A stretch of DNA of 64,000 nt from Streptomyces pyxinae (GTDB lineage: Bacteria; Actinomycetota; Actinomycetes; Streptomycetales; Streptomycetaceae), in contig NZ_JANUGQ010000005.1 in NCBI RefSeq assembly GCF_024756275.1, positions 124,001 through 188,000 of the forward strand, written 5' to 3'. A program made the position numbers and the translations under genes. The notes under the pieces were generated by a model. The model was not told the origin of the DNA. It was given only the letters and a program-made list of their open reading frames with translations, and did no database searches. Shown here in pieces: positions 24,799 through 60,304 of the stretch (positions are counted from its first letter, which is position 1; each line of letters starts with the position of its first letter).

Positions 24799-24880
24799 CC
24801 CACCGGGACGGCTGCCGTCACCGGTGGGAGAACGGCAGTCGTCACCGGCGGGAGACGCGCTGGTCGTCACCGGTGGGCGC
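24799..24880. repeat. three direct repeats forming inverted-repeat structure between convergent genes
   Basis: GTCACCGGTGGGAGA or a near match occurs at 24817, 24841 and 24866, spaced 24-25 bases. The last copy overlaps the end of the PucR gene. CCCACCGG at 24799-24806 pairs with CCGGTGGG at 24821-24828, so the unit may also act as a terminator for the LAL gene. Confidence 0.6.
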
Positions 24881-26844: not shown

Positions 26845-28446
26845 ATGAAGGCTGCATCCGTTTCGCGTGCCGTGACAAAGGGCGTCGCGCTGGGTGCTCT
26901 CGTGCTCGCCACGTCCCTGTCGCCCATGTCGGCATCTGCCACGAAGGGGCGGGAGCAGGTCATCGCGGCGGATTATTCCTGCGCCGCCGTGAATGGTGCC
27001 GTGAGTGACCGCCGGGTGCGGGTGGAAGTCGTCTTCGGCGGCCGGTTCCCGGACCGGGGGCGGGCCGGATCGGCCGTGCGCGTGGCGGACTTCACCATAC
27101 GCCCGGGGCTGACGCGTGCGGCCGTGCGGGAACTGCTGCCGGCCGGCACCGCGGTCGTGTCCGGCACGGCGCGGCTCGCGGCGGACATCGCGCTCGACGG
27201 CCGGGGAGTCCGGGCCGACTGGTCCGGACTCGTCGCCGCACGGACCGCCCCGGACGCCGGCGGCGGCCTGGCCCCGGTCTTCACCGGCGCGGTGCCGGAG
27301 ACGACCGCCACCCGGGCAGGCCGACTCACCGTCACCGGGGGCGAGTTGTCCCTGACACTGTGGACCGGACCGGCGGAGCCGCCCGGGCCGGCCGAGCCGA
27401 CCGAGCCGACCGGACCGAGCGGACCGGCAGGGCAGGCGGGGCCGGGTGGCGCGACGGCGCCCGGAGTCCCGGCCGGGCCGGGGGCGCGCGCGCGGTCCCT
27501 GGCGGGCGCCCCCGTCGAGGTGCGGTGCGGACCGCTGCGGCCACCGGGGCCGCGTCTCGTCTCCTGGGAGGTCACCGCGTCCAGCGGGACACCGTCCGGA
27601 TCCCCCACGGCCGGGGCCGGGGTCCCCGGCAGCGGCGACACACCGCCCGATCCGCTGAGTTCGTCCGGAACCGGTCCCGCGGGTCCGGACACACCCGCCG
27701 GCGAGCCACCGGTCCGCACCGCGCGGGCGCCCCGGGGGCAGGCACCCGTCTGCCCCACGGACCGGCCCAGGGGTGAGCTCGACCCGGCGCGGCTGCCGAA
27801 GCCCCCGCCGGGGGCCGTCGAAGGCAGCATCGGCGGCTCACTGTGCACCGTCGCCGTGGGGTATGCCACCGTGCGCAAGCAGAACGCCGCGATGATCGTC
27901 AACGACCCCCGGCGGACACCGGGGCTGATGCACCTCGACCTCGGCCGCCGCACCGTGAGCAGCGCCGACGGCGGCTACACCGAGTCGGACTCCCTCGGTG
28001 TCCTGCACCTGCCCGACGCCGACTCCACCTTTCTCACCTTCGGCTTCCAGCCCGTGTCCGCCAGGGTCACCTTCGAACCGGGCCCGGTGACCGTCGTCAA
28101 TGTCCTCCGCGACGGCGAGCAGTCCACCACCGTGGGCTACTGGCAGCATCTGCGTATCCACCATGTGCGTCTCAACGGCGTGCCGCTGGACGTGGGTTCA
28201 CACTGCCGTACCGCACGCAGGATCGACACCAGACTCTCGGGCGCGTACCCCTTCATCACCGGTGGGCTGCTGACCGGGCAGATCACCGTCCCGCCGTTCA
28301 CCGGCTGCCGCTCGGCCTCGGGCGAGGACCTCTCGCGGCTGTTCACCGCCGCCATCTCGGGTCCCGGCAACGCCCTGCGCATCCAGCAGGGCGGCCTCGC
28401 GGGAGGAGGCGCGTCGCCCCCCGTGCCGCCGCTGCCCGGCCGGTGA
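26845..28446 (+). CDS. secreted DUF6801-like protein, first gene of the Mce operon
   Basis: The 533-residue exported protein has a Sec signal (residues 1-32, ending MSASA). An N-terminal beta-rich domain starts at IAADYSCAAVNGAV and resembles the DUF6801 proteins further along the window. A Pro/Gly/Thr-rich linker covers about residues 180-310, with many Gly-Pro pairs. The C-terminal domain ends GSHCRT, then GGLLTGQITVPPFTGC and AAISGPGNALRIQQGG, the same signature as the paralogues at 43767 and 45092. The ATG follows CAGGAGTGGGGTA. It lies only 62 bases upstream of the Mkl ATPase, so it probably works outside the cell with the Mce lipid transporter. The biochemical function of the family is unknown. 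Confidence 0.8.
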   Translation: MKAASVSRAVTKGVALGALVLATSLSPMSASATKGREQVIAADYSCAAVNGAVSDRRVRVEVVFGGRFPDRGRAGSAVRVADFTIRPGLTRAAVRELLPAGTAVVSGTARLAADIALDGRGVRADWSGLVAARTAPDAGGGLAPVFTGAVPETTATRAGRLTVTGGELSLTLWTGPAEPPGPAEPTEPTGPSGPAGQAGPGGATAPGVPAGPGARARSLAGAPVEVRCGPLRPPGPRLVSWEVTASSGTPSGSPTAGAGVPGSGDTPPDPLSSSGTGPAGPDTPAGEPPVRTARAPRGQAPVCPTDRPRGELDPARLPKPPPGAVEGSIGGSLCTVAVGYATVRKQNAAMIVNDPRRTPGLMHLDLGRRTVSSADGGYTESDSLGVLHLPDADSTFLTFGFQPVSARVTFEPGPVTVVNVLRDGEQSTTVGYWQHLRIHHVRLNGVPLDVGSHCRTARRIDTRLSGAYPFITGGLLTGQITVPPFTGCRSASGEDLSRLFTAAISGPGNALRIQQGGLAGGGASPPVPPLPGR

Positions 28447-28508
28447 CCGGAAGCCGGTGCCGGAGGCACGGCCGACGGAACCGGAAGAGAGCCGAATCAG
28501 GAGAGCAG

Positions 28509-29618
28509 ATGGGAATCGAAGTGGTCGTCGAAGGGCTCACCAAGGCCTTCGGCCGGCAGACGATCTGGCAGGACGTGACGCTCACTCTGCCGCCGGGCGA
28601 GATCAGCGTCATGCTCGGTCCTTCCGGGACGGGCAAGACCGTCTTCCTCAAGGCCGTCGTGGGTCTGCTCCGCCCCGACCGGGGCCGGGTCCTGGTGAAC
28701 GGCGTCGACATGGCGAACAGCCCCGAACGCGACATCTTCGAGGCCCGCAAGCTGTTCGGGCTGCTCTTCCAGGACGGCGCGCTGTTCGGCTCGATGAGCC
28801 TCTTCGACAACATCGCCTTCCCGCTGCGGGAGCACACCAAGAAGAAGGAATCGGAGATACGGCGCATCGTCATGGAGCGCATCGAACTCGTCGGACTGGT
28901 CGGCGCGGAGCGCAAGCTGCCCGGTGAGATCTCCGGCGGCATGCGCAAGCGGGCCGGACTGGCACGCGCGCTCGTGCTCGACCCGCAGATCATCCTCTGC
29001 GACGAGCCGGACTCGGGGCTCGACCCGGTGCGCACCACGTTCCTCTCGCAGCTGCTCGTCGACCTCAACGCCGAACTCGACGCGACCATCCTGATCGTCA
29101 CGCACAACCTGGAGATCGCCAGGACCGTGCCCGACAACATGGGGATGCTCTTCCTGCGCCGCCTGGTCACCTTCGGCCCCCGGGAGGTGCTGCTCACCAG
29201 CGACGAGCCGGTCGTGGAGCAGTTCCTGGGCGGGCGCATGGCCGGGCCGATCGGCATGTCCGAGGAGAAGGACCAGGCCGCCCTCGACCGGGAGGCCCTG
29301 GCGGGCCCGGTCCCCGAGCGCGCCGGGACCCGCGAGGTCGTCCCGCAGATGCGGCCCAGCGCCGGGCTGCCCGAGCGCCGGGCTGTGCGGCGCCGGCGGG
29401 AGCGCGTACGGGAGTTGCTCCACACCCTGCCGCCCGCGGCCCGCGCCGCCGTCGAGGCCGACCTGCGGCACGGTGACCGGGACACCGCGGCGTACACCGT
29501 CCCGGACGGTCCGGCGGGCGGGGGGACCACCGGCCCCGCGCCCGACCCGGCCCGCGTGGACACCCGGCCCGAGGCCCCCACCCTTCTGCTGCCCCGGTTC
29601 GGAAGGCGGCGGTCATGA
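28509..29618 (+). CDS. mkl: Mkl/MlaF-type ATPase of the Mce transporter
   Basis: The 369-residue ATPase has Walker A GPSGTGKT (residues 37-44), signature ISGGMRKRAGLARAL, Walker B IILCDEPDSGLD and switch VTHNLEIA. GGMRKR instead of the usual GGQ.QR is typical of MlaF/Mkl. It powers lipid movement through the YrbE permeases. About 110 residues rich in Arg, Pro and Ala follow the ATPase core; in mycobacterial MceG the C-terminal extension helps assemble the complex, and that may hold here. In mycobacteria the ATPase gene is usually separate from the mce operons; here it heads the transporter genes. Its last four bases overlap the next gene (ATGA). Confidence 0.93.
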   Translation: MGIEVVVEGLTKAFGRQTIWQDVTLTLPPGEISVMLGPSGTGKTVFLKAVVGLLRPDRGRVLVNGVDMANSPERDIFEARKLFGLLFQDGALFGSMSLFDNIAFPLREHTKKKESEIRRIVMERIELVGLVGAERKLPGEISGGMRKRAGLARALVLDPQIILCDEPDSGLDPVRTTFLSQLLVDLNAELDATILIVTHNLEIARTVPDNMGMLFLRRLVTFGPREVLLTSDEPVVEQFLGGRMAGPIGMSEEKDQAALDREALAGPVPERAGTREVVPQMRPSAGLPERRAVRRRRERVRELLHTLPPAARAAVEADLRHGDRDTAAYTVPDGPAGGGTTGPAPDPARVDTRPEAPTLLLPRFGRRRS

Positions 29619-30475
29619 GCGCGCCCACCGAACCCCGCACCGCGCCCGGCCCGCGCACCCCGCCCGGGCCCCGCACCGCGGCCGAACCGCCCCCGCCCCG
29701 GCCGCCGCTGAAGGCGCTCGAACCCCTCCGGGAGACCGGCCGGCTGTTCGCCCTCGGCGCCCGGGTGCTGCGACTGATGGGCAAACGCCCGTACCATTTG
29801 CGGGAGTTCGTGGAGCAGTTCTGGTTCATCGCCAGTGTCACCATCCTGCCCGCGATGCTGGTGACGATCCCCTTCGGCGCCGTCATCGCCCTCCAGGTCG
29901 GCTCGCTGCTCCAGCAGTTCGGCGCCCAGTCGTTCACCGGCGGTGCCAGTGTGCTGGTCATCATCCAGCAGGCGAGCCCGCTGATCGTCTCGCTGCTCAT
30001 CTCCGGTGTCGCCGGCTCCGCGATCTGCGCGGACCTCGGCGCGCGCACCATCCGCGAGGAACTCCAGGCCATGGAGATCATGGGCGTCTCGCCCGTGCAC
30101 CGGCTGGTGGTGCCCCGGGTGCTCGCCGTCACCGCCGTCGGCGTCCTGCTCAACGGACTCGTCTCGGTCGTCGGCACGGCGGGCGGCTACTTCTTCAACG
30201 TGATCATGCAGGACGGCACCCCGGGCGCGCATGTCGCGAGCTTCTCCGCGCTCGCCCAGCTCCCCGACCTGGTCATCAGCGAGATCAAGGCCCTGATCTT
30301 CGGCTTCATCGCCGGCGTCGTCGCCGCCCACCGCGGCCTCAACCCCCGGGGCGGACCCAAGGGCGTGGGCGACGCGGTGAACCAGTCGGTCGTCTTCACC
30401 TTCCTCATCCTGTTCTTCGTCAACATGGTGCTGACCGCCCTGTATCTGCGCCTCGTGCCGGCGAAGGGGCTCTGA
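29615..30475 (+). CDS. yrbEA: MlaE/YrbE-family permease A of the Mce system
   Basis: The 286-residue membrane protein has about five or six helices and the MlaE motif region ILPAMLVTIPFGAVIALQVG and SGVAGSAICADLGARTIREE, with LQAMEIMGVSP following, the loop that contacts the ATPase. The N-terminal 35 residues are Pro-rich and probably cytoplasmic. It pairs with the next gene as the heterodimeric inner-membrane permease under the Mce needle proteins. Its start is coupled to the ATPase stop. Confidence 0.93.
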   Translation: MSAPTEPRTAPGPRTPPGPRTAAEPPPPRPPLKALEPLRETGRLFALGARVLRLMGKRPYHLREFVEQFWFIASVTILPAMLVTIPFGAVIALQVGSLLQQFGAQSFTGGASVLVIIQQASPLIVSLLISGVAGSAICADLGARTIREELQAMEIMGVSPVHRLVVPRVLAVTAVGVLLNGLVSVVGTAGGYFFNVIMQDGTPGAHVASFSALAQLPDLVISEIKALIFGFIAGVVAAHRGLNPRGGPKGVGDAVNQSVVFTFLILFFVNMVLTALYLRLVPAKGL

Positions 30476-30478
30476 GCC

Positions 30479-31309
30479 ATGGCCCTGACCGAACGCCTGG
30501 CCCCCGGCCGCCTGTTCACCTGGCTGGACCGGGCCGGTGACGAGTTCACCTTCTATCTCCGCGCACTGCTGTGGGTCCCCCGGGCCGTGCGCCGCTATCC
30601 CAGGGAGATCCAGCGGCTGCTCTCCGAGGTCGCCCTCGGGTCGGGCGGACTGAGTGTCATCGGCGGCACCGTGGGCGTGATGATCGGCATCACCGTCTTC
30701 ACCGGCACCGTCGTCGGCCTCCAGGGGTACGCGGCCCTCAGCCAGATCGGCACCGACGCCTTCACGGGCTTCGTCTCCGCCTACTTCAACACCCGGGAGA
30801 TCGCCCCGCTGGTGGCCGCGCTGTCCCTGTCGACCACGGTCGGCGCCGGTTTCACCGCACAGCTCGGCGCGATGCGCGTCAACGAGGAGGTCGACGCGCT
30901 GGAGTCCATGGGCATCCGCGCCGTCCCCTACCTCGTCTCCACCCGTATCGTCGCCGCCACCGTGGCGATCGTGCCGCTGTACGGCATCGGCCTGCTCGGC
31001 TCCTACCTCGCCTCGCGCCTGGTCACCGTGGCGTTCAACAACCAGTCCACCGGCACCTACGACCACTACTTCGCGCTGTTCCTGGTGCCGACCGACGTCC
31101 TCCTCTCCTTCCTGAAGATCGTCATCTTCTCGGTGCTCGTCATCATGGCCCACTGCTACTACGGCTTCCGCGCCGCCGGCGGACCCGCCGGGGTGGGACT
31201 CGCCGTCGGCCGGTCGGTGCGCACCGCGATCGTGCTGATCAGTGTGACCGACTTCTTCCTCAGTCTGGCCCTGTGGGGCGCCACCACCACGGTGAAGGTG
31301 GCCGGATGA
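30479..31309 (+). CDS. yrbEB: MlaE/YrbE-family permease B of the Mce system
   Basis: This 276-residue MlaE-type permease has GVMIGITVFTGTVVGLQGY, then TVGAGFTAQLGAMRVNEEVD and ALESMGIRAVPYLV, the paired coupling-helix region. It starts three bases after permease A and overlaps mceA by four. Together the two form the transmembrane channel that passes hydrophobic substrates from the Mce protein ring. Confidence 0.93.
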   Translation: MALTERLAPGRLFTWLDRAGDEFTFYLRALLWVPRAVRRYPREIQRLLSEVALGSGGLSVIGGTVGVMIGITVFTGTVVGLQGYAALSQIGTDAFTGFVSAYFNTREIAPLVAALSLSTTVGAGFTAQLGAMRVNEEVDALESMGIRAVPYLVSTRIVAATVAIVPLYGIGLLGSYLASRLVTVAFNNQSTGTYDHYFALFLVPTDVLLSFLKIVIFSVLVIMAHCYYGFRAAGGPAGVGLAVGRSVRTAIVLISVTDFFLSLALWGATTTVKVAG

Positions 31310-32631
31310 ACCCGCCCGTCACAACCCCGCCGCACCCCGCGCCGCCGGCTCCGCCGGTCCCGCCGGCCTTGCGCACGCGGCCGTCGGAGGCCGGTGTCCG
31401 GGTGCGCCGCCGACTGGCCGGGGCGCTCTACCTGATCCTTCCGGCGGCCCTGATCTGGCTGTCCCTCGCCGTCTACCACCGCGACTTCGAGCGCAGCGAC
31501 CGCGTCGTCGTGGAGAGCGGCACGGCCGGCAATGAGATGCACCCGCAGGCCGACGTCAAGCTGCGCGGTGTCGTGGTGGGGCGCGTCGAGCGGATCGACA
31601 CCCGGGGCTCCGGGGCCCGCCTGACCCTCGCCCTGCGGCCGGGCGTCATCCGGCGCATCCCCTCCGACGTCACGGCGCAACTGCTGCCCACCACCCTGTT
31701 CGGACAGCGGTACGTGGCCCTGGTGCCGCCGGCCCGTCCGTCCGCCCGGCCGCTGCGGCCGGGAGCGGTCATCCCGCCCGACCGCAGCCGCAACGCGGTG
31801 GAACTGCAGCAGGCGCTGAACAACCTGCTGCCGCTGCTGACGGCCGTCCGGCCCGACCGGCTCTCCGCGACCCTGACCGCCGTCTCGCAGGCCCTGGACG
31901 GCCGCGGCACCCAGCTCGGCGCGACGCTCACCCGGCTCGACGGATACCTGCGCCGGCTCAACCCGGAACTGCCGCACCTGAACGCCGACCTCAAGGAGTT
32001 CGTGAAGGTCAGCAGGTCGTACTCCGCCTCCCTGCCCGGCGTCGTCGACGCCCTGTACGACGCGACCACCACCAGCGCCACCCTCGCGGACGAACGGCGG
32101 CGGCTCTCCGCCCTCACCACCTCGGTGACCGCCTCGTCGCAGACCCTGACCACCTGGCTGCGGCGGAACCAGGCCAACCTGATCCGGCTCACCGCCACCG
32201 GCCGGCCCACCCTGGAACTCCTGAGCCGGTACGCCCCGGAGTTCCCCTGCACCCTCAAGACCCTGGCCGACTTCGTGCCGGTGATGGACCGGGCGCTGGG
32301 CAAGGGCACCGGCCGGCCCGGTCTGCACGTCGAGGTGACGGTCGTCCACGGCCGTGGCGCCTACCGGCCCGGCACCGACACCCCGCGCTACGACGCCCGG
32401 GGCGGCCCGGCCTGCTACCCCGTGCCGTACAGCGGGGGTGGTACGCCCCCGAGCGCCGCGCCGGCGGTCACCACCCTGCGGGACGGCCTCGGCACCCCCA
32501 ACTCGCCCCAGGAGAACACCCTTGTGAACGAACTCCTCGGGGCAGGGACCTCGCGCGAGGCCGCCCTGCCCGACTGGTCCAGCCTGCTCGCCGGCCCCGT
32601 GCTGCGCGGCACGGAGGTGAGGCTCAAGTGA
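31306..32631 (+). CDS. mceA: MCE-family protein A
   Basis: The 441-residue protein has one N-terminal membrane helix (ALYLILPAALIWLSLAVY, about residues 45-62) after a Pro-rich cytoplasmic start. The MCE beta-barrel domain (VKLRGVVVGRVERI, LLPTTLFGQRYVAL) is next, then a long helical region for the needle (residues about 160-330). Six such proteins normally assemble as a hetero-hexameric tube. It begins in the ATGA overlap with yrbEB. A Cys pair near the C-terminus (about residues 308 and 370) may form a disulfide outside the membrane. Confidence 0.92.
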   Translation: MNPPVTTPPHPAPPAPPVPPALRTRPSEAGVRVRRRLAGALYLILPAALIWLSLAVYHRDFERSDRVVVESGTAGNEMHPQADVKLRGVVVGRVERIDTRGSGARLTLALRPGVIRRIPSDVTAQLLPTTLFGQRYVALVPPARPSARPLRPGAVIPPDRSRNAVELQQALNNLLPLLTAVRPDRLSATLTAVSQALDGRGTQLGATLTRLDGYLRRLNPELPHLNADLKEFVKVSRSYSASLPGVVDALYDATTTSATLADERRRLSALTTSVTASSQTLTTWLRRNQANLIRLTATGRPTLELLSRYAPEFPCTLKTLADFVPVMDRALGKGTGRPGLHVEVTVVHGRGAYRPGTDTPRYDARGGPACYPVPYSGGGTPPSAAPAVTTLRDGLGTPNSPQENTLVNELLGAGTSREAALPDWSSLLAGPVLRGTEVRLK

Positions 32632-33659
32632 ACCGGGCCCGTCTGACCGGACCGCTCGTCAAGTCGGCGCTCTTCGTCCTCGTCACGGTCCTCGCCACCG
32701 GCACCCTCGCCGTCAGCGTCAGCAACTCCGGCGTGGGCCCTGGCGACACCTACAAGGCGTGGTTCACCGACGCCACCGGACTCGTCGCCGGTGACTCGGT
32801 GCGCGTCGCCGGGGTCGCGGTGGGACAGGTCGACTCGATCGAGATCGTCCAGCACCGGTACGCCCAGGTCGAGTTCCACGTCGAACGGGGCCGCACGCTG
32901 CCCGGCACCACCACCGCCGCCATCAAGTACCTCAGCATGATGGGGCAGCGGTACGTCTCCCTGGACCGCGCCGCCGGCACCGGCGGCCCGGCGCTGAGCC
33001 CCGGCGCGACCATCCCGCTGCGGCGCACCCGGCCGGCCGTGGACATCACCCAGCTGTTCAACGGATTCCAGCCGCTGTTCCGGGGACTGTCCCCGTCCGA
33101 CACCAACAAGCTCGCCGCCTCCGTCGTCCAGGTGCTCCAGGGCGAAGGGCCCACCGTTGAGAGCCTGGTGAGCACGATCGGGTCGCTCGCCGGCACCCTG
33201 GCCGCCAAGGACACCGTCATCGGCCAGGTCATCGACAACCTCAACGCCGTGCTGAACACCGTCACTTCGCACGAGACCGGCTTCACCGACCTGGTCGACA
33301 CCCTCGACCAGCTCGTCGCCGGACTCGCCCAGGACCGCGAACCCATCGGGGACGCCGTCAGCGGCCTGGCCGCGCTGACCACCAGTACCACCGCCCTGCT
33401 CCACGAGGGCCGCGCGCCGCTCAAGCAGAGCATCGACCAGCTCGGCCGCGTCTCCGCCAACCTCGCCGACAACGCGCCGGTCGTCGAGCGCTTCCTCCGG
33501 CGCACCCCGGGCAAGCTGGACGCCCTCACCCGGCTCGTGTCCTACGGATCGTGGCTCAACCTCTATCTGTGCGAGGCCCGTGTCACCGGCGTGGCCACCG
33601 ACGACGGCAGCAGGCCCCCGACCGGCCTCGCCCTCAAGGACCAGAGGTGTCTGCGATGA
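32628..33659 (+). CDS. mceB: MCE-family protein B
   Basis: The 343-residue MCE protein has a membrane helix at residues about 9-28 (SALFVLVTVLATGTLAVSV), the MCE domain with VRVAGVAVGQVDSIEIVQ and KYLSMMGQRYVSLD, and a long helical segment. The end, YGSWLNLYLCEARVTG, is the conserved MceB C-terminal block. The start is GTG in the GTGA overlap with mceA. Confidence 0.92.
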   Translation: MNRARLTGPLVKSALFVLVTVLATGTLAVSVSNSGVGPGDTYKAWFTDATGLVAGDSVRVAGVAVGQVDSIEIVQHRYAQVEFHVERGRTLPGTTTAAIKYLSMMGQRYVSLDRAAGTGGPALSPGATIPLRRTRPAVDITQLFNGFQPLFRGLSPSDTNKLAASVVQVLQGEGPTVESLVSTIGSLAGTLAAKDTVIGQVIDNLNAVLNTVTSHETGFTDLVDTLDQLVAGLAQDREPIGDAVSGLAALTTSTTALLHEGRAPLKQSIDQLGRVSANLADNAPVVERFLRRTPGKLDALTRLVSYGSWLNLYLCEARVTGVATDDGSRPPTGLALKDQRCLR

Positions 33660-34768: not shown

Positions 34769-34781
34769 AGGGAGCGGGGCC

Positions 34782-35816: not shown

Positions 35817-37066
35817 GCCCCCGAGCCGCCCGGATCGCCTTCGCGGTGTGCGGCGCCGCCGTCGCCACCGGCCTGGTGTTCACCGCCCGGGCCGGCCTGC
35901 CCGGCCTCCCCGGCATCGGCACCGTCCCCCTGCCCGGTGGCGCCGACCTCGGGCCGCACCCCTACACCGTGACCGCCGTCTTCCGGGACGTCACCAGCCT
36001 GTTCCCGCAGTCCGCCGTCAAGGTGAACGACGTCCCGGTGGGCCGCGTCGAGCGCATCACCGCAGGCCACGACGACTGGCTCGCCCGCGTCACCCTGCGG
36101 ATCAACGGCGATGTCCGGCTGCCCCGGAACGCCTACGCCACCCTGGAACAGTCCAGCCTGCTCGGGGAGAAGTACGTCGAACTGTCGGACCCCGGCAGCC
36201 TCGCCACCCGCCCCGACCTCGCCGTCTCCGGCCGCGATACGCCCAACGCGGACGCCCCCGACCCGGACGCCCCCGGCCCGGCGGCCCCCGGCCCGGCGCC
36301 GGTGACCGCACCGGTCACGGCGCGGGAACGGGCCGTCGCGGGTGAACGGGCCGCCGGGCGGCTCTCCGACGGCGACACCATCCCGGTGGCGCGCACCAAC
36401 CGCAACGCGGAGGTGGAAGAGGTCTTCGGCGCCCTGTCGATGCTCCTCAACGGCGGCGGCGTCGGGCAGCTCAACACCATCACCCGGGAGCTCGGCCAGG
36501 CCCTGGACGGCAGGCAGGGCACGGCGCGCTCCGCGCTCCGGCAGATCTCCGCCCTCGCCAGGAACCTCGACGCCCACAAGGGCGACATCACCGAAGCCCT
36601 CGACCACCTCAACACCCTCTCCGCCACCCTCGCCGCCCGTGACCAGAAGGTCGGTGCCGTCCTCACCCGGCTCAGCCCCGGGCTCAAGGTGCTCCGGGAC
36701 CAGCGCGGCGGACTCGTCACCATGCTCAGGGCGCTCGACACCCTCTCCTCGACGGCCGTCACCACCATCGACCGGAGCAAGGCCGACACGGTGGCCGGCC
36801 TCAAGGCCCTCGCACCGGCCCTGAAGAGCCTCGCGGACGCCGGACAGGCGCTGCCCGACGCCCTCCAGGTGCTGGTGACCTACCCGTTCACCGACGAGGT
36901 CCTCTCCGGCGTCAGGGGCGACTACCTCAACGTCTACCTCAAGAGCACCGCCGCGCCCGGCACCACGATCCTGCCCGCGCACGGCGCCGCCGCCCCGGGC
37001 CCGGCGGCCGGGATCCTGCCGCTGCCCCCCGTGTCCGCGTCACCGGAGGGAGACGACACCCCGTGA
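35813..37066 (+). CDS. mceE: MCE-family protein E
   Basis: The 417-residue MCE protein starts in the ATGA overlap with mceD. A hydrophobic N-terminus (residues about 6-25) is followed by the MCE domain with VKVNDVPVGRVERITAG and EQSSLLGEKYVELSD. A Pro/Ala-rich insert (about residues 140-180) interrupts the usual order before the helical segment. In mycobacteria the E position is a lipoprotein (LprK-like). Here the N-terminal Cys (AFAVCGAA) does not make an acceptable lipobox, because Phe-Ala-Val precedes it, so a plain anchored helix is more likely. Confidence 0.9.
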   Translation: MSPRAARIAFAVCGAAVATGLVFTARAGLPGLPGIGTVPLPGGADLGPHPYTVTAVFRDVTSLFPQSAVKVNDVPVGRVERITAGHDDWLARVTLRINGDVRLPRNAYATLEQSSLLGEKYVELSDPGSLATRPDLAVSGRDTPNADAPDPDAPGPAAPGPAPVTAPVTARERAVAGERAAGRLSDGDTIPVARTNRNAEVEEVFGALSMLLNGGGVGQLNTITRELGQALDGRQGTARSALRQISALARNLDAHKGDITEALDHLNTLSATLAARDQKVGAVLTRLSPGLKVLRDQRGGLVTMLRALDTLSSTAVTTIDRSKADTVAGLKALAPALKSLADAGQALPDALQVLVTYPFTDEVLSGVRGDYLNVYLKSTAAPGTTILPAHGAAAPGPAAGILPLPPVSASPEGDDTP

Positions 37067-38295
37067 TCACCCGCCTGACCCACCTCAAGAACATCGCCTT
37101 CCTCCTCCTCGGCGCCGTCGTCCTCGCCTACATCGGCCTCCACTACGCCGACCTCGGCCGCTGGGCCGGGGCCTCGGGGACGTACACCGTGCTGGTCGAA
37201 CTCGACCGGACCGGAGGTCTGTTCGACGGATCCAACGTCACCTACCGGGGCGTCGACGTCGGACGCGTCCGCACCGTCCGGCTCACCGACGACGGCGTCG
37301 AGGCGGAACTGGCCATCGACACCGCCACGCCCCGCATCCCCGCCGACCTCACCGCGAAGGTGGCCGACCTGTCCGCCGTCGGCGAGGACTACATCGACCT
37401 CGCCCCGCGCACCGGCCACGGTCCCTATCTGCGCGACGGCTCCCGTGTGCCGCGCACCGACACCACGACCCCCGCCCCCATCACCGACCTGCTCGCCAGT
37501 GTCACCTCGCTGTCGGCGTCCGTGCCCGCCGAAGAGCTGCGTACCACCGTCGACGAACTCGGCAGGGCCTTCTCCCACCAGGGCCAGAACCTCCAGGTAC
37601 TCCTCGACAGCGGCAGCCGCTTCCTCGAAGCCGCCGACACCGCCTTCCCCGCCACCCGCGAGCTGCTCGTGGACTCCCGGACGGTGCTCGCCACCCAGGC
37701 GGACAGCTCCCGGGCACTCGCGGCGTTCGCCGACGGCGCCCAGCAGATCGCCCGGACGCTCAAGACCTCCGACGCCGATCTGCGCCGGCTCGTCGGCGCG
37801 GCGCCGGAGGCCGCCGAGCAGGTCACCGCGCTCCTCAAGGACACCGACCCCGGCCTGAGCGTCCTGCTCGCCAACCTCACCACCACCTCCGAGCTGTTCG
37901 TCACCCGGCAGGACGGCGTCCGCGAACTGATGGTCCGGCTGCCCCGGGTGGCCGCCAAGGGCGCCACCGCGATCACCGGCGCGGGGGTGCGGCTGGGCCT
38001 GGTCACCACCTTCTTCCAGCCACTGCCGTGCACGGCGGGATACGGCGGTACGCCCCACCGCAACGGCCTCGACACCTCCACCGGACGCGTCAACACCTCG
38101 GCCGCCTGCACCGCGTCACCCGGCAGCGGACAGAACGTGCGCGGCTCGGCCAACGCCCCGCGCGGCGGCGTCCCCGCCCCCGCCGGGCCGGGCCCCCTCG
38201 GCTCCGCCGCGCCCCTGCCCCGGCAGGGCGCGGCACACCCCGGGCCGAGCGATCTCGGCGGTCTGCTCGGTCTCGCCGAAGGAGGTGGCCGGTGA
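37063..38295 (+). CDS. mceF: MCE-family protein F
   Basis: The 410-residue MCE protein starts at GTG in a GTGA overlap. It has a membrane helix (IAFLLLGAVVLAYIGLHYA), the MCE domain with VTYRGVDVGRVRTVRL and LSAVGEDYIDLAPR, the helical stem, and a C-terminal low-complexity tail rich in Gly, Pro and Ala after two Cys residues (LPCTAGYGG, SAACTASPG). It ends the six-gene mce set and is coupled to the first Mce-associated gene. Confidence 0.92.
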   Translation: MITRLTHLKNIAFLLLGAVVLAYIGLHYADLGRWAGASGTYTVLVELDRTGGLFDGSNVTYRGVDVGRVRTVRLTDDGVEAELAIDTATPRIPADLTAKVADLSAVGEDYIDLAPRTGHGPYLRDGSRVPRTDTTTPAPITDLLASVTSLSASVPAEELRTTVDELGRAFSHQGQNLQVLLDSGSRFLEAADTAFPATRELLVDSRTVLATQADSSRALAAFADGAQQIARTLKTSDADLRRLVGAAPEAAEQVTALLKDTDPGLSVLLANLTTTSELFVTRQDGVRELMVRLPRVAAKGATAITGAGVRLGLVTTFFQPLPCTAGYGGTPHRNGLDTSTGRVNTSAACTASPGSGQNVRGSANAPRGGVPAPAGPGPLGSAAPLPRQGAAHPGPSDLGGLLGLAEGGGR

Positions 38296-38807
38296 CCCGC
38301 CGCTCCCTGCTGTGGACCGTGGTCCTCACGCTGGCGCTCGCGCTGTGCGGCCTCTCCGCGTGGCGCCTCCACCTGGCCCTGACCGACGAGGACACGGCGT
38401 TCGCCCGGGCCCGGGACAGCGCCCTGGCCGACGGGCGCGACCACATCGCCCGCCTCAACTCCGTCGACAGCACCCGGATCGACGCCGACATCGACGCCTG
38501 GCTGGACGCCACCACCGGCCCGCTCAGGAACGACTACGACCGGCTGCGCGCCCAGCACACGGCCGAGCTGACGAAGGCCGGCACCACGATGTCCGCCCAG
38601 GTCACCGACGCGGCCCTCACCTCACTGGACGACCGGGCGGGCACCGCCCGCCTGATCGCCACCGTCCGGGTCGAGGCGACCTCGCGCGGCGGCGGGCGCA
38701 GCACCGACCGCAAACGCTTCGAGGCGGTCCTGGCCCGGACCGGCGACGGCTGGAAGCTCACCTCGCTCTCCGCCGTCGCGGCAGGCGGACAGGAGGACCC
38801 GCGGTGA
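38292..38807 (+). CDS. Mce-associated membrane protein, type A (first copy)
   Basis: This 171-residue protein has one N-terminal membrane helix (LLWTVVLTLALALCGLSAW) and a small extracytoplasmic domain of the NTF2-like kind seen in mycobacterial Mas proteins: DSALADGRDHIARLNSVDST, then TTGPLRNDYDRLR and LDDRAGTARLIATVRV. The gene at 39384 is a clear paralogue. In mycobacteria Mas proteins are needed to stabilise Mce transporters. It starts at GTG overlapping mceF. Confidence 0.85.
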   Translation: MTRRSLLWTVVLTLALALCGLSAWRLHLALTDEDTAFARARDSALADGRDHIARLNSVDSTRIDADIDAWLDATTGPLRNDYDRLRAQHTAELTKAGTTMSAQVTDAALTSLDDRAGTARLIATVRVEATSRGGGRSTDRKRFEAVLARTGDGWKLTSLSAVAAGGQEDPR

Positions 38808-39370
38808 CCACACCGGGAACGGCGGTCGTGGCGGCCGGGAGCGCGACCGGCGAGCGGCCGGCGCCCGCCGGCGGGCACGGCGCCCGGCGGTGGTGGGCGC
38901 CGGTGTCGGCGGCGCTCCTGCTCGCCGCCTCCGCCGCGCTGCTGCTCTCCGCGCACCTGTACGGGGCCGGGGCCCGCGCCGACACGGCGCTCACCGACGC
39001 CACGACCACCGGACAGGTGCGGGACACCGTGGAGTCGACGCTCACCACGGTGTTCAGCTACAGCCCGGCCACCCTCGACGCCACCCGCGACGCGGCACGC
39101 GACCTGCTGGGCGGTGAGGCCGCACGGCAGTACGCCGCGCTGTTCGCCCAGGTCGACCGGCGCGCGGCCGGCCAGCGGGTGACGCTCACCACCCGGGTCG
39201 TCCGCAGCGGTGTGCGGCGCATCACGCACGGCACGGCCGACGTGCTGGTCCTCCTCGACCAGCACAGCTCCCGCCCCGGCACCAAGGCCACCGTGGTGGC
39301 CGCCCAGTTGTCGGTGACCGCCCGGCTGGACGGCGGCCACTGGCGGATCACCCGGATCACGACACGATAG
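38804..39370 (+). CDS. Mce-associated membrane protein, type B (first copy)
   Basis: This 188-residue protein has a membrane helix (APVSAALLLAASAALLLSA) and an extracytoplasmic domain with DTALTDATTTGQVRDTV, then VFSYSPATLDATRDAARDLL and ARQYAALFAQV. The protein at 39997 matches these blocks closely, so the two are duplicates. GTG start overlaps the previous gene. Confidence 0.85.
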   Translation: MTTPGTAVVAAGSATGERPAPAGGHGARRWWAPVSAALLLAASAALLLSAHLYGAGARADTALTDATTTGQVRDTVESTLTTVFSYSPATLDATRDAARDLLGGEAARQYAALFAQVDRRAAGQRVTLTTRVVRSGVRRITHGTADVLVLLDQHSSRPGTKATVVAAQLSVTARLDGGHWRITRITTR

Positions 39371-39383
39371 GCGGTGCGTTCCC

Positions 39384-39986
39384 ATGAAAGGCCGTAACCG
39401 GCTGCCGGGAAGAAGGCGGCGGCCCGCCCGCGCCACGGAGCCGCGCGGTGGGCGCACCCGGCTCGCGCTGCCCGCGGCACTCCTCGTGGCCGCCGGGTTC
39501 GCCGCCTGGGCGTGCGCCGGCTGGTACGCGTCCGCGCACGACGAGCACGTCGCCTACAGCCGGCATCGGGACGCCGCCCTCGACGCGGCCGAACAGGGCG
39601 TGCGGAACCTTAACACCCTGGACCACACGGAACTCGACCACGGCCTGGCCCTCTGGGAGGAGTCGGCCACCGGCGATCTGCTCGGGGACCTCAGACGCAG
39701 CAGGGCCCAGTTCAGCCGACAGGTCCGGTCGGCCCGGACCACGACCAGCGCCCGGGTGCTGTCCGGCGCGCTCACCGAACTCGACGACCGGGCGGGCCGG
39801 GCGAGGGCGATGGTCGCCGTCCGCGTCACCGTCCGCACCCCCGACCGGAAGACCGCCGTCAAGGACAGCCGCATGCTCGCCGAGCTGACCCGGACGGGCG
39901 GCGGCTGGAAGCTGAACGCCCTGGGCCAGGCGCCCGTCGGAGACACGGGCACCGCGGGCCCGGACGCGGCCCCGGACGCGGAGTGA
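39384..39986 (+). CDS. Mce-associated membrane protein, type A (second copy)
   Basis: The 200-residue protein resembles the one at 38292: a basic N-terminus, a membrane helix (ALPAALLVAAGFAAWACAGW) and the block DAALDAAEQGVRNLNTLDHT followed by ATGDLLGDLRRSRAQF and LDDRAGRARAMVAVRV. It begins 13 bases after the type B gene. Confidence 0.85.
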   Translation: MKGRNRLPGRRRRPARATEPRGGRTRLALPAALLVAAGFAAWACAGWYASAHDEHVAYSRHRDAALDAAEQGVRNLNTLDHTELDHGLALWEESATGDLLGDLRRSRAQFSRQVRSARTTTSARVLSGALTELDDRAGRARAMVAVRVTVRTPDRKTAVKDSRMLAELTRTGGGWKLNALGQAPVGDTGTAGPDAAPDAE

Positions 39987-39996
39987 GGAGACGCCG

Positions 39997-40734
39997 ATGC
40001 CGACCGCCCGCCATCTGGTCAACCGCAGGCGCCGTATCGACCGGCTCGACGGCCGCCCCGTGAGCCGGAGCCCGGACGCGACCGCGCACCGGCCCTCCGC
40101 CAGGGCCGCCACCCCGACCCGGTCCCGGGCCGACCGGACCGCTGCCTCCCCGACCGCCAAGTCCTCCGGACGCGGCGGGTGGTGGGCGCCCGGACTGACA
40201 GCCGTGGTGGTACTGCTCGCCGGTCTGGGCGGCTACGCGTGTCTACGGACCCGCGCCCTGGACGACCAGCCCGTCCGCCACAACACGGCGCTCACCGACA
40301 CCGCCGCCACCAGCCGGGTCAAGGGCCTCGTCGACACGGCGGTGCGGGACCTCTTCTCGTACCGCTACACCGACCCGGACCGTACCCGGGCCGCCGCCAG
40401 GGACCGGCTCACCGGGGCGGCCGTGCGGCAGTACGCCGCGCTGATGGAGCAGGTCCACGCCCAGGGGCCCGCGCAGCGGCTGGTGCTCACCACCACGGTC
40501 ACCGACAGCGGGGTCGAAGTCCTCGACGGTGGCCGGGCGCGGCTCCTCGTCTTCGCCGACCAGGTGAGCACCCGCACCGGCAAGGACGGGGGCGACACCG
40601 TCGCGGCGGCCATGTTCGCGGTGGACGCCGTACGGCAGGGGAGTACCTGGCGGATCGCCGGCATCGACACCTTCCGGCGCGCCCAGGACACCGGGCCGCC
40701 TCAGGAGCAGCCGCAGACCCCCCAGTCGCCGTAG
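39997..40734 (+). CDS. Mce-associated membrane protein, type B (second copy)
   Basis: The 245-residue protein has a long basic cytoplasmic N-terminus (about 60 residues), a membrane helix (APGLTAVVVLLAGLGGYACL) and a domain matching the 38804 protein: NTALTDTAATSRVKGLVDTA, LFSYRYTDPDRTRAAARDRL and VRQYAALMEQV. The A-B-A'-B' order shows a two-gene module was duplicated. The ribosome site GAGGAG precedes the ATG. Confidence 0.85.
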   Translation: MPTARHLVNRRRRIDRLDGRPVSRSPDATAHRPSARAATPTRSRADRTAASPTAKSSGRGGWWAPGLTAVVVLLAGLGGYACLRTRALDDQPVRHNTALTDTAATSRVKGLVDTAVRDLFSYRYTDPDRTRAAARDRLTGAAVRQYAALMEQVHAQGPAQRLVLTTTVTDSGVEVLDGGRARLLVFADQVSTRTGKDGGDTVAAAMFAVDAVRQGSTWRIAGIDTFRRAQDTGPPQEQPQTPQSP

Positions 40735-40805
40735 GACACGCCGCGGGCCCGGCCTCGGGCCGAATCGCAGGACAAGCAGTCCGGCCAGGACAAGGAGTGA
40801 CCGCC

Positions 40806-41408
40806 ATGACATCCGGATCCCGTCCCCGCACCACCCCCCGCACCGCCCCCCGCGCCGGAACCGCCCTGGGCGGCCTGGCCCTTCTGGCGGGACTCCTCGC
40901 CACCGCCGGCTGCGGCTCCCCGCCCGCTCCCGGGCACCGGTCCGAGCCCCAGGTGAAGTGGGCCTCCGGCGTCTGCCGTCACCTGGACACCAGTGGCTCC
41001 CGGCTGACCGTGCCGAAGCTGGACGAGAAACGGCCCGCCGCGGCACGGCAGCAGCTGGTGACGTTCCTGACCACCGTCGACCAGCGGCTCGGCGCCGTGC
41101 GGGCCGCCATGAAACGGGACGGTGCCCCGCCCGTCAGCGGTGGGCAGGCCGCCTTCGACCAGGCCATGCGGAATCTCGACGGTGTCCGGGCCCGGCTCGG
41201 CACCGCCACCGCCGGTCTGGCGAAGGCCGAGGTCACCGACCCGGCCTCGCTGCGGAGCGCGCTGCGGACGGCGGGGGCGCCGTTGCGCACCCTCGGCACC
41301 TACCAGGGGCCCGCGCACGACCTGAAGAGCCAGGTACCCGAGCTGAAGAAGGCGTTCGCCGGCAACCCCGACTGCGTCGGGGCCGACGGGACCGTCCAGG
41401 GCGACTGA
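40806..41408 (+). CDS. secreted lipoprotein in the Mce operon
   Basis: The 200-residue protein has a signal peptide ending in the lipobox ATAGC (Cys36), so it is lipid-anchored outside the membrane. The mature part is helical, with two more Cys residues (ASGVCRHLD and NPDCVGAD) likely to form a disulfide. Long Leu/Ala/Arg helices follow (VTFLTTVDQRLGAVRAAMKR). I do not recognise a named family. AAGGAG lies nine bases before the ATG. Position in the operon suggests it helps the Mce transporter handle substrate. Confidence 0.8.
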   Translation: MTSGSRPRTTPRTAPRAGTALGGLALLAGLLATAGCGSPPAPGHRSEPQVKWASGVCRHLDTSGSRLTVPKLDEKRPAAARQQLVTFLTTVDQRLGAVRAAMKRDGAPPVSGGQAAFDQAMRNLDGVRARLGTATAGLAKAEVTDPASLRSALRTAGAPLRTLGTYQGPAHDLKSQVPELKKAFAGNPDCVGADGTVQGD

Positions 41409-41424
41409 GAAGGAGGCCAGGGCC

Positions 41425-42465
41425 ATGCGCGAGACTCCCGTCAGAACCGGTACCAGTACCAGTACCAGTACCGGGACTGGCCCCGTAGCGGGCCGTCCCG
41501 GCACCGACGCCCCCGAAACGCCGGTCGGGACCGAGCCGTTGAGCGGCGGCGGCCCCCCGGACGCGGCCCGGCCGGTGGAGGGGGCCGGCCCCCCGGACGG
41601 GTCCGGGGAACCGGCCCCGCCCGATGCGCCGACCCCGCCCGATCGGTCGACCCCGCCCGTACCACCGGCCCGGCCCGTACAACCGGCCCGGCCCACACCA
41701 CGGACCCCGCCCGAACAACCGGACCACGGTCGGCCGTTGGGTGGTGGTGGGCCGTCCGACGCCGCCGGGTCCCCGCCGGAGGGGGCGGGAGAGCCACCAG
41801 GGGGTGTCCCGGCGTCCGGCGCGCTCCGCGACCGCCTGTCCGACCGCACCCCCGCCCAGCGCGTCATCGCCGGTACGGCGACGGTGCTGGTCGCCCTCGC
41901 GCTCGTGCTGCACACCGTGGCGACCTTCCTCACCGTCGCCCCCGCCAACGCGGTGACCGCCGGCCAGGGCGACCGCGTCCGCGCCTACATGGGACCCGAG
42001 TTCAAGCAGAGCTGGCAGCTGTTCTCGCCCGACATCACCCGCACCATGGACCGGGTGTACGCGCGCCGCCAACTGCGCGCCCCGGACGGCTCGGTCACCA
42101 CCACCGACTGGACCGACCTGACCGGCGCCGACCTGGACGAGCTGCGAGGCAACCTGATGCCGAGCCGCATCCGCCAGCAGCTCAACAACGCCTGGAGCAC
42201 CCTCGCCGGCAGCCATGACGCCGCCCAGCGCCCGCTGGGGCAGCGCGGTCTCGACAGCGAGCAGTACCTCAAGCGGCTGGCCCTCACCCGGACCCCCGCA
42301 CCGCCGGCGGGCTCCCGCGTCGTGCGCCTCCAGTTCCGGGACATCGTCACCACCGTGCCCGCGCCGCCGTGGCAGCAGAGCCAGGCCGTGCCGGAGCCGA
42401 CGGTGCGGACCACGCCCTGGTGGCCGGTGGGCCCGGCCGATCTCGCGGAAGGGCACCGGGCATGA
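41425..42465 (+). CDS. DUF5819-family membrane protein
   Basis: The 346-residue protein opens with about 125 residues of low-complexity Pro/Gly/Ser/Thr, including Thr-Ser alternation from a TACCAG hexamer repeat (41447-41478). A membrane helix follows (VIAGTATVLVALALVLHTVA) and then the conserved block GPEFKQSWQLFSPDITRTMD, which I recall from the DUF5819 family. The C-terminal half has many Trp and Arg residues. DUF5819 genes are usually paired with HTTM genes, as here, and the two overlap by four bases. The function is unknown. Confidence 0.82.
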   Translation: MRETPVRTGTSTSTSTGTGPVAGRPGTDAPETPVGTEPLSGGGPPDAARPVEGAGPPDGSGEPAPPDAPTPPDRSTPPVPPARPVQPARPTPRTPPEQPDHGRPLGGGGPSDAAGSPPEGAGEPPGGVPASGALRDRLSDRTPAQRVIAGTATVLVALALVLHTVATFLTVAPANAVTAGQGDRVRAYMGPEFKQSWQLFSPDITRTMDRVYARRQLRAPDGSVTTTDWTDLTGADLDELRGNLMPSRIRQQLNNAWSTLAGSHDAAQRPLGQRGLDSEQYLKRLALTRTPAPPAGSRVVRLQFRDIVTTVPAPPWQQSQAVPEPTVRTTPWWPVGPADLAEGHRA

Positions 42466-43655
42466 GCGGTTCACCCGGCCTCGCGGACGCACCGGTCCGC
42501 CGGGCCCTCGACTGGGCCTGCGATCCGTACCGCTGGAGGTACCAGGCAGCGGCCGTGCGGATCGGCATGGCGCTGACCTGGCTGATCCTGTTGCTGCACG
42601 AATTCCCCCGGCGCGGGCGGCTCTGGGGCCCGGACGCCGCCTGGAGCTGGCAGCTCGCCCAGCGCCAGCTGGAGGAGTCCCACGCCTTCAGCGTGCTGCT
42701 CTGGTGGCCCGGTGAGCTGTGGTTCGAGGCGTTCTACGCACTGTCCGTCGCCGTCGCCGCGGCGCTGCTGGTGGGCTGGCGCACCCGCACCATGTCATTC
42801 CTCTTCCTGATCTGTGTCCTCTCGCTCGACCACCGCAACGAATGGGTCCTCAACGCCGGTGACACCGTCTTCCGGCTCACCGCGGTCTACCTGGTGTTCA
42901 TGCGGCCCGGCCGGGTGTGGTCCCTCGACGCCCGGCGCGCGGGGCGGCCGGTCCGCCGCGACCGGACCGGCCCGGTGCTCTGGGCCCTGTGCGGCCTCGT
43001 GCTGGCGTACCTCACCCTCGGCGCGATCCTGACGGGCGGCTGGTCGCTCGTCCTGTGGCTGTACTGGCTGGCGCACGCGGTGCGCGCGATCGGGGACCGG
43101 CACGAGGGGACGCGCGGCACACTGGACCTGATCGGGGACATCGTCCACAACGCCGCCGTCGTCATGCTGATGATCCAGGTGTGTCTGGTCTACGCGACGG
43201 CGGGCTGGTACAAGATCCAGGGCCGTCAGTGGCAGGACGGCTCCGGGGTGTACTGGGGGCTCGGGCTGGACTGGCTGACGCCCTTCCCGTCCCTCACCCA
43301 GCTGATCACCTCGCACGCCCTGCTCGTCCTGGCGCTCTCCTACGGCACGGTCGTCCTGCAAGTGGCCTTTCCCTTCGGGGTGTTCAACCGGCGCCTGAAG
43401 AATGTCATGCTGGCCCTGATGTTCGCCGAGCACATCGGCATCGGGGTGCTGATGGGGCTGTTCTACTTCTCGCTGTCGATGATCGTGGCGGACCTGGTCT
43501 TCCTGCCCACCGGCTTTCTGCTGGGCGCCGCGGAGTACGGCCGGCGGGCGGTGCGCCGGGCCCGGCCGGCGGTGCCGCGCCGGCCGGCGGGTGAAGCGGC
43601 CGGTGAGTCCGGGCCGCCGTGGCGCGACCCCGGGGGCGTACCGGCCAAGACCTGA
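42462..43655 (+). CDS. HTTM (vitamin K-dependent gamma-carboxylase-like) membrane protein
   Basis: The 397-residue protein has roughly eight to ten membrane helices. It contains the HTTM features: AVRIGMALTWLILLLHEFPR at the first helix, then CVLSLDHRNEWVLNAGDTVF and YATAGWYKIQGRQWQDGSG, and a final region with FYFSLSMIVADLVFLPTG. HTTM domains form the membrane part of vitamin K-dependent gamma-carboxylases, but bacterial stand-alone forms are mostly uncharacterised. It ends the long operon, 51 bases before a strong terminator. Coupled by ATGA to the DUF5819 gene. Confidence 0.88.
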   Translation: MSGSPGLADAPVRRALDWACDPYRWRYQAAAVRIGMALTWLILLLHEFPRRGRLWGPDAAWSWQLAQRQLEESHAFSVLLWWPGELWFEAFYALSVAVAAALLVGWRTRTMSFLFLICVLSLDHRNEWVLNAGDTVFRLTAVYLVFMRPGRVWSLDARRAGRPVRRDRTGPVLWALCGLVLAYLTLGAILTGGWSLVLWLYWLAHAVRAIGDRHEGTRGTLDLIGDIVHNAAVVMLMIQVCLVYATAGWYKIQGRQWQDGSGVYWGLGLDWLTPFPSLTQLITSHALLVLALSYGTVVLQVAFPFGVFNRRLKNVMLALMFAEHIGIGVLMGLFYFSLSMIVADLVFLPTGFLLGAAEYGRRAVRRARPAVPRRPAGEAAGESGPPWRDPGGVPAKT

Positions 43656-43705
43656 ACCGGCCCGGGACAGCCGCGGGAGAGTCGTGGGACAGCTGCGGGA
43701 AAGGC

Positions 43706-43740
43706 GTGGGGCGGGCCCTGTCGGACAGGGCCCGCCCCAC
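43706..43740. terminator. strong bidirectional hairpin terminator
   Basis: GTGGGGCGGGCCCTGTC (43706-43722) pairs perfectly with 43724-43740, a 17-bp stem with an almost absent loop. It ends the 17-gene operon and also faces the convergent DUF6801 gene. Confidence 0.9.
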
Positions 43741-43766
43741 GGCGCGTACACCGGACCGCTTGCCGC

Positions 43767-52886: not shown

Positions 52887-52998
52887 CCGACTCCGCTCCC
52901 TCCCCCCACGTGTTCCAGCCCTCCGGTACGCCCCCCACGTCCCGTACTCCGGGCTGCCGAGCAGACCCGGCCTTGTGCCCCGTCGGATTCGAGGTGTC

Positions 52999-60303: not shown

Positions 60304-60304
60304 G

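Follow-up and report, generated by a model that had tools for sequence, protein, structure and literature searches.

In this study, we analysed a 64,000-nucleotide stretch of the Streptomyces pyxinae genome (hereafter the window; genome size 7.38 Mb) and found that 17 consecutive genes on its plus strand (26845-43655) encode a complete Mce transporter together with proteins of the DUF6801, DUF5819 and HTTM families. With a probability of about 0.5, we consider this locus to be a variant of the Streptomyces mce6-type lipid-transport locus, in which DUF6801 proteins would serve as carriers and the DUF5819/HTTM pair as an enzyme. The run, which was present with the families named in the original prediction, consists of 14 genes (an operon of the mce6 kind known in Streptomyces plus a DUF6801 gene) followed by m15, DUF5819 and HTTM. 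By its neighbourhood, DUF6801 belongs with this Mce lineage. The DUF5819/HTTM pair is genuinely linked to mce genes, but only within a rare sub-clade and the neighbour closest to it.

The first gene of the run, all on the plus strand, encodes a secreted-looking DUF6801 protein of 533 amino acids (the leader, 26845..28446; PF20611, E = 7.3e-10; signal peptide by inspection), with an N-terminal DUF6801 and a C-terminal domain that is common to two further proteins of the window, DUF6801_2 and DUF6801_3 (C-terminal alignment). The transporter genes comprise an Mkl/MceG-type ABC ATPase (28509..29618; PF00005, 2.5e-27; best NCBIfam match MlaF, 4.7e-59, under cut-off), the permeases YrbEA (29615..30475; PF02405, 1.4e-61) and YrbEB (30479..31309; PF02405, 1.1e-59), and six Mce genes: MceA (31306..32631; PF11887, 7.4e-78, PF02470; TIGR00996, 3.6e-57, above cut-off), MceB (32628..33659; PF02470, 4.9e-17, PF11887), MceC (33656..34768; PF02470, 2.7e-17, PF11887), MceD (34782..35816; PF02470, 2.3e-16, read from an upstream start, the start being uncertain between TTG 34782 and GTG 34827), MceE (35813..37066; PF02470, 9.5e-20, PF11887) and MceF (37063..38295; PF02470, 3.3e-18, PF11887). 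The family matches across the operon are thus one ABC ATPase, two MlaE and six MlaD/Mce4_CUP1.

Downstream of MceF are m11 (38292..38807; weak DUF4440/SnoaL), m12 (38804..39370; homologues at the same place in most canonical operons), m13 (39384..39986; SnoaL/NTF2-like, PF13577 SnoaL_4, 2e-5, 25 versus 24 bits) and m14 (39997..40734). In the samples described below, all 39 genus stretches have homologues of m11, m13 and m14, and 29 of the 30 family stretches have those of m11 and m14. All four had been predicted to be Mas-type proteins. Homology and position in canonical operons agree with this, but m13 alone reaches a Pfam NTF2-like cut-off, and m11, m12 and m14 are called Mas by position and homology. 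The last three genes encode m15, a lipoprotein-like protein by inspection that has no family match (40806..41408), a DUF5819 protein (41425..42465; PF19136, 1e-40) and an SdpB-like HTTM protein (42462..43655; PF05090, 2.6e-8; TIGR04033, 1.1e-13, under cut-off), the latter two being divergent second copies in the genome. The PF19136 match has 140.5 bits against a cut-off of 27.1, and PF05090 has 34.2 against 27.7 when the protein is searched (20.7, under cut-off, in the genome scan). For PF20611 (cut-off 26), the leader scores 39.6 bits and the other three DUF6801 proteins of the window 73.9, 77 and 79.4.

Two YrbE permeases followed by six MlaD-domain Mce genes are the arrangement of actinobacterial Mce operons, and the window also has the Mkl-like ATPase upstream of yrbEA and the Mas genes downstream that mark the mce6 type. 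The assignment to mce6 rests on this gene order and on a tree that groups the window with the operons L068-L097. Upstream of the run and divergent from it is a PucR-type regulator gene (24867..26102, minus strand; PF13556 HTH_30, 3.1e-16), and a PucR-like gene is also found upstream in S. lichenis, G441, G439 and the canonical operons L069 and L141.

To describe the distribution of these genes, a sample of 101 Streptomycetaceae genomes (family sample) was used, in which MlaE permeases were found in 39 genomes, DUF6801 in 31 and DUF5819 in all 101. We fetched 40 of the 42 other operons and read them for gene order; genes were called by a simple script with approximate starts, and MceD genes there carry the label MceB, the MceD reference being out of frame. 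All 30 operons of the window's lineage (L068-L097) have an upstream DUF6801 homologue (in opposite orientation in L081), and the set of four Mas-type genes is complete in 29, a contig end cutting the remaining one. None of the 10 operons of other lineages has DUF6801 (nine are informative, since L103 starts at Mkl on a contig end). The node of the lineage has a support of 0.955 and also includes L144 and loci added later, while L099, which has no Mkl match, was left out of the tree.

The same result was obtained in a genus sample of 295 genomes (DUF6801 in 101, MlaE in 148). Among the operons listed, DUF6801 lies 2.0-5.2 kb upstream of YrbEA in 81 of 84 operons of the lineage versus 0 of 63 of the other lineage. 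The lineages were separated by score order, and G542 was moved by match range; without this move the counts are 80/83 and 1/64. The 84 exclude the low-scoring operons of the window, G441, G395, G422 and G485 as well as three YrbEB matches, and contig ends were disregarded for the 63. Two (G374 and G524) of the three operons without DUF6801 resemble contig breaks. It should be noted that the sampled genomes are relatives, so that the counts are not independent events. Thus, DUF6801 stands next to mce genes far more often than by chance, as the original prediction supposed, but in one lineage of the genus. Of the 81 copies, 47 are on the same strand as the operon and 34 are divergent, and therefore the adjacency is conserved and co-transcription is not. 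The earlier description of DUF6801 as a co-transcribed leader may suit these 47 operons, the window and the four loci of S. lichenis, G441, G395 and G439 (same strand in the window and these four, gaps 19-74 bp), but it does not apply generally.

Outside Streptomycetaceae, seven genomes have both families; DUF6801 is directly adjacent to mce genes in two and at most about 10 kb away in one. In two genomes of another family (L142 and L143), DUF6801 lies 60-63 bp 5' of Mkl in a separate mce lineage, and in a third genome (L144), two DUF6801 and three sec210-like genes accompany an operon that belongs to the window's lineage, at distances of up to about 13 kb. L142 and L143 also carry, just upstream of DUF6801/mce, an ECF-type transporter-like set (by inspection) and a two-domain DUF6801 protein. 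G306 has 14 DUF6801 matches, none of them on a contig with an MlaE match. The sec210-like proteins are secreted-looking, have about 200-210 amino acids and adjoin DUF6801 in canonical mce loci (L068:1594-2241, L069:1589-2212, L070:1224-1877, L078:18214-18834, L081:2293-2922, L084:827-1456 and L097:18791-19381); the four of these seven proteins that were scanned gave no Pfam match. A recent loss of sec210 from the window was rejected, with no remnant between PucR and DUF6801 (best tblastn E 0.05). A literature search found no mention of DUF6801, although an earlier notice of this neighbour may exist.

The 3' extension has a much narrower distribution. In tblastn searches with m15, DUF5819 and HTTM as queries (two versions of each), we found none of them in the 39 genus and 30 family stretches, of which 68 extend to m14 (39 genus and 29 family; family operon L088 ends before m11), whereas the same queries found them in 4 of 4 positive loci. 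The genus stretches come from 60 of the 84 operons listed, without the C10 operon of the window's genome, G024, G076, G374, G541 and the tail of the list; one was too near a contig end, and 39 of the resulting 59 regions were checked (three short, 2-4 kb). An SLT (lytic transglycosylase) homologue is present in 37 of these 39. HTTM and DUF5819 as general Mce partners were therefore rejected, and the adjacency expected earlier stands in the form of a divergent copy beside mce in five genomes.

The five loci were recognised as follows. A scan of genome contigs with the window's DUF5819 identified one relative, S. lichenis LCR6-01, in which PucR, the leader, the transporter, the Mas genes, m15, DUF5819 and HTTM have the same order as in the window, with DUF6801_2, DUF6801_3, Usp, cyclase, WxLIP-like, DUF6801_4, lipase and polyketide synthase (PKS) genes and, further on, SLT in the 3' part. 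In the genus sample, at least five DUF6801 matches were found in the window's genome, G541, G441, G395 and G439. G441 has the complete 17-gene order (identity 34-87%), followed by DUF6801 genes, WxLIP, the WxL fusion, glycosyltransferase, lipase and SLT. In G395, one contig carries the genes from the leader to MceE and a second one the stretch m14-HTTM together with the DUF6801/WxLIP block and PKS genes; MceF to m13 were not seen. G439 is rearranged: the 3' end of its operon has no m15, and an m15-like gene, two DUF6801 genes, a DUF5819/HTTM pair and PKS1 lie on the opposite side of the mce operon. Further DUF6801 genes, a WxLIP-like gene and a secreted lipase are found around these loci, and PfaA-like synthase genes around four of the five.

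A single clade with support 1.0 unites the transporters of the window, S. lichenis, G441 and G395, and G439 is adjacent to it (0.934). In the HTTM and DUF5819 trees (FastTree, midpoint-rooted), the G439 HTTM groups with core copies (0.974); the remaining four may belong together. We considered whether each locus recruited its HTTM pair independently and do not adopt this reading, although these trees do not decide the matter. The mce-linked copies are an old, diverged set, and the variant is rare but old. The window's genome also has a second, canonical mce operon (G000:C10, L068) with its own DUF6801 and SLT genes; this operon and the canonical operon of S. lichenis (L141) cluster with low support (0.815 for the wider node).

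The gaps within the run are, in order, 62, -4, 3, -4, -4, -4, about 13, -4, -4, -4, -4, 13, 10, about 71, 16 and -4 base pairs (bp). The tight junctions noticed earlier were confirmed: by the start/stop table and a check of the MceD start, 14 of 16 are at most 16 bp (13 of 16 if MceD begins at GTG 34827 instead of TTG 34782). The two exceptions are the DUF6801/Mkl gap of 62 bp and the m14/m15 gap of about 71 bp (62 bp if m15 starts at GTG 40797). The expected lack of a strong internal hairpin also held at the junctions, the part that was scanned, where the top score is 6 on our scale versus 17 for a hairpin at 43705..43741. This hairpin is perfect (17/17 pairs) and corresponds to the strong terminator placed earlier at 43706. 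However, it lies between convergent genes (HTTM stop 43655, DUF6801_2 stop 43767) and has no T run, so it may serve either gene. S. lichenis has a hairpin of 13/14 pairs at the equivalent site; in G441, no hairpin of such strength was found within 159 bp 3' of HTTM, and in G395 there is no room for one because the convergent genes overlap as called. The generic scan neither helps nor hurts the operon reading, since it gave no sigma-70-like sites (0.3 expected) and 2 terminator-like sites versus 3.5 expected.

It is possible, though we would not expect it, that the run is divided into several transcripts, namely DUF6801 alone, mce to m14, and m15 to HTTM from a promoter of their own in the 71-bp gap. 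The two widest gaps fall at these borders, and the divergent DUF6801 copies of other listed genus operons fit such a division. However, the distance between m14 and m15 measures just 6 bp in S. lichenis, 10 bp in G395 and 47 bp in G441, and the internal junctions have no strong hairpin. We suggest that the 17 genes of the window may be co-transcribed.

The usual site of the DUF5819/HTTM pair is a core locus away from mce, in which the two genes are adjacent and on the same strand in 31 of 31 cases (the window genome's own and the 30 best-scoring). The window's genome has two DUF5819 copies, and the operon copy is 31-38% identical to 14 core copies. The SdpB model TIGR04033 matches 16 of 16 HTTM sequences, under cut-off where a score is given; with 51.5 bits against 178.4, the window's HTTM is a relative of SdpB and not a member. 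In addition, an HTTM profile search of the PDB gave 13 sequences: GGCX takes the first seven places (E 0.086-0.12), and the remaining six belong to a potassium channel. K251 and H324 of HTTM weakly align with K218 and H287 of GGCX (E about 0.09; GGCX positions numbered along the chain in which the match starts at 202), which we take to be catalytic residues, and both are kept in 19 of 19 HTTM sequences (5 mce-linked and 14 core). The best hit of DUF5819 in a PDB sequence search was a cytochrome oxidase subunit (E 0.34), and the papers listed by a literature search on HTTM or DUF5819 make no mention of DUF5819. Most of the core loci L006, L008, L013, L023 and L035 have a neighbour resembling a phenylacetyl-CoA epoxidase subunit or an rRNA methyltransferase (inspection).

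These likenesses could also point to SdpAB-like maturation, in which DUF5819/HTTM would modify or process the secreted m15 or a DUF6801 protein and be unrelated to the transported lipid. The TIGR04033 matches and the conserved K and H are in keeping with this, and each of the five mce-linked loci also contains DUF6801 genes and m15. However, DUF5819 is not recognised as SdpA, and no DUF6801 was found beside the core pair in five core loci displayed with flanks of about 1.5 kb. We regard this explanation as rather unlikely and keep to a lipid-transport variant in which the substrate of the pair would be either the transported molecule or a secreted protein of the locus.

Downstream of the run, the minus strand carries the convergent DUF6801_2 (43767..44936; PF20611, 2.1e-20), DUF6801_3 (45092..46495; PF20611, 2.2e-21), a WxLIP-like protein (48713..49723; PF06030, 9.1e-4) and DUF6801_4, in which DUF6801 is fused to a WxL domain (49824..51068; PF20611, 4.1e-22 and PF13731, 1.4e-6, both above cut-off). 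The WxLIP_PGBD-like gene is the next gene downstream of DUF6801_4, and homologues of both are also found in S. lichenis, G441 and G395. Also within this block (46736-48513) are genes for a Usp protein and an adenylate-cyclase-like protein, and the same pair was seen in G056 after SLT behind a canonical mce operon. On the plus strand are a secretory lipase of the LIP family (51587..52870; PF03583, 1.4e-47) and two PfaA-like lipid/polyketide synthase genes (52963..64000; NMO, KS, AT, ACP and KR, then KS, AT and DH) with unsettled starts, the second passing the window end. From about 52.96 kb, the domains read PfaD-type ER, KS, AT, ACP and KR, then KS, AT, DH and phosphopantetheinyl transferase. 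TIGR02813 (PfaA) reaches at most 453 bits versus 1010, a cut-off meant for a whole protein whereas the genes were scanned in pieces. Beyond the window, the synthase is followed by a carrier protein, a hydrolase, a UDP-glycosyltransferase, a methyltransferase and SLT. The PfaA-like lipid synthase cluster with glycosyltransferase and methyltransferase is covered by 52963-64000 and L151.

The whole block from PucR to SLT might be one lipid-handling system, in which the Mce transporter is encoded with its own substrate pathway, but we consider this improbable. Under this hypothesis, a special glycolipid would be made by the PfaA-like synthase together with the carrier protein, the glycosyltransferase and the methyltransferase. 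The enzyme formed by DUF5819/HTTM would then, with the secreted lipase, remodel this glycolipid on the outside of the membrane, and the Mce transporter and wall-anchored DUF6801 carriers would shuttle it between the membrane and the outer wall. No PKS genes were found in the stretch read of G441, and therefore the synthase may not be essential to the variant. A literature search found no paper combining an Mce operon, a polyketide synthase, a lipid transporter and Streptomyces.

It is least probable that the neighbourhood has no function and that a spare core DUF5819/HTTM copy behind the mce operon has persisted through linkage or read-through. Every genome of the family sample has DUF5819, and the pair is missing from the canonical operons checked, as this would lead one to expect. 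However, G441 preserves the gene order and G395 its 3' end, despite an HTTM that shares just about 35% identity with that of the window. In addition, the DUF5819 and HTTM genes have a 4-bp overlap at each of the five loci, and G439 has the same modules on the other side of the mce operon. An accident of assembly or open reading frame calling was rejected, since the 17-gene order is kept in S. lichenis and G441.

For the lipid-transport variant that we favour, we infer the role of the locus and the direction of transport as follows. Mkl and YrbEA/B would drive lipid movement via an assembly of MceA-F, and the secreted DUF6801 proteins would retain a hydrophobic molecule in the cell wall or pass it on there. 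One DUF6801 copy may be fixed to peptidoglycan via its WxL domain and the WxLIP-like partner, and DUF5819/HTTM may form an SdpAB/GGCX-like membrane enzyme on the outward side of the membrane. By analogy with mycobacterial Mce1 and Mce4, uptake would be the more likely direction. The surface capture or modification of a hydrophobic substrate suggested in the original prediction is compatible with the domain evidence.

A structure model of DUF6801_2 gives hints that DUF6801 may be a ligand-binding wall protein. The C-terminal part of this model is nearest to small beta-barrels: NspA (Z 11.9, 3.0 A, 144 residues), BcnB (Z 8.9, 3.2 A, 128), PagP (8.5, 3.2 A, 123) and YceI (8.1, 3.4 A, 128), where a Z near 8 can reflect a common arrangement. 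Its N-terminal part comes closest to a membrane-anchored C. diphtheriae protein, 3lso_A (Z 10.8, 3.0 A, 151 residues; next matches about 6). A PDB sequence search with DUF6801 gave one match (E 0.51).

However, several observations weigh against the proposed linkage and roles. DUF6801 is divergent in 34 of the 81 genus operons and hence need not belong to the transcript, 46 of 129 genus DUF6801 genes lie more than 8 kb from any listed YrbEA, and 20 of the 101 genus genomes with DUF6801 have no such gene within 8 kb of a listed YrbEA (at least 6 of the 20 through contig breaks or the range of matches listed). Four of the seven genomes outside Streptomycetaceae with both families have no DUF6801/mce adjacency. 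All 101 family genomes have DUF5819 but only 39 have MlaE, so the basic job of the pair is independent of Mce. In an NCBIfam search, which is not a direct DUF5819-SdpA comparison, 16 DUF5819 members match no SdpA model. The GGCX match is weak, with E 0.086-0.12 for the whole sequence and no stretch passing alone, and the WxLIP match is under cut-off. Furthermore, the DUF6801_2 model, built with seven sequences, is weak (mean predicted local distance difference test, pLDDT, 66; predicted template modelling score, pTM, 0.40), Foldseek found no match to it at E <=0.001, and the model of the leader C-terminal domain failed (pLDDT 47).

DUF6801 and DUF5819 are Pfam families of unknown function, and the linkage to Mce suggests, for three uncharacterised families, a first cell-surface role that can be tested. 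To our knowledge, the substrates of Streptomyces Mce systems are still open. The near-constant DUF6801 beside one Mce lineage and the separable m15/DUF5819/HTTM extension make both questions testable by deletion.

Mycobacterial Mce systems consist of an ATPase, a YrbE pair and six Mce proteins. The window is like Mce1 and Mce4 in these parts and differs from them by its extra secreted and membrane genes; Mce1 and Mce4 are described as lipid importers in passages of PMC9947336. Among the closest known systems are the operons of mce6 type in Streptomyces and Nocardia farcinica (Casali and Riley 2007, PMC1810536). According to passages of that paper, they have, like the window, an Mkl-like ATPase upstream of yrbEA, the yrbE pair, mce genes and downstream Mas genes, of which S. 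coelicolor has four, and its mce6 passages make no mention of DUF6801. The window differs from canonical mce6-type operons by the m15-DUF5819-HTTM extension, which is absent from the 68 canonical operons reaching m14. This HTTM is like SdpB of the Bacillus subtilis SdpAB pair (model match, under cut-off), whereas DUF5819 matches no SdpA model in NCBIfam, and no SdpC-like gene was identified, although no search was aimed at SdpC. HTTM may also be like GGCX, with which K251 and H324 align weakly.

The synthase genes resemble the secondary lipid synthases of types L and M, which passages of PMC3098273 describe from Streptomyces with unknown product, in having PfaD-type ER, KS, AT, ACP, KR and DH in large genes. 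Type L synthases have pfaD at the 5' end (PMC3098273), whereas in the window the ER is fused to the first KS protein. Meanwhile, the window has a WxL-domain protein (DUF6801_4), as WxL/WxLIP clusters do, and the adjoining WxLIP_PGBD-like gene (under cut-off) may be a counterpart of their WxLIP. WxL domains bind peptidoglycan and, in the passages of PMC10599100, are described almost entirely from Lactobacillales and Bacillales, unlike the Streptomyces setting of the window. Thus, a WxL protein with a WxLIP-like partner in Streptomyces would widen a system described mostly from Firmicutes (PMC10599100).

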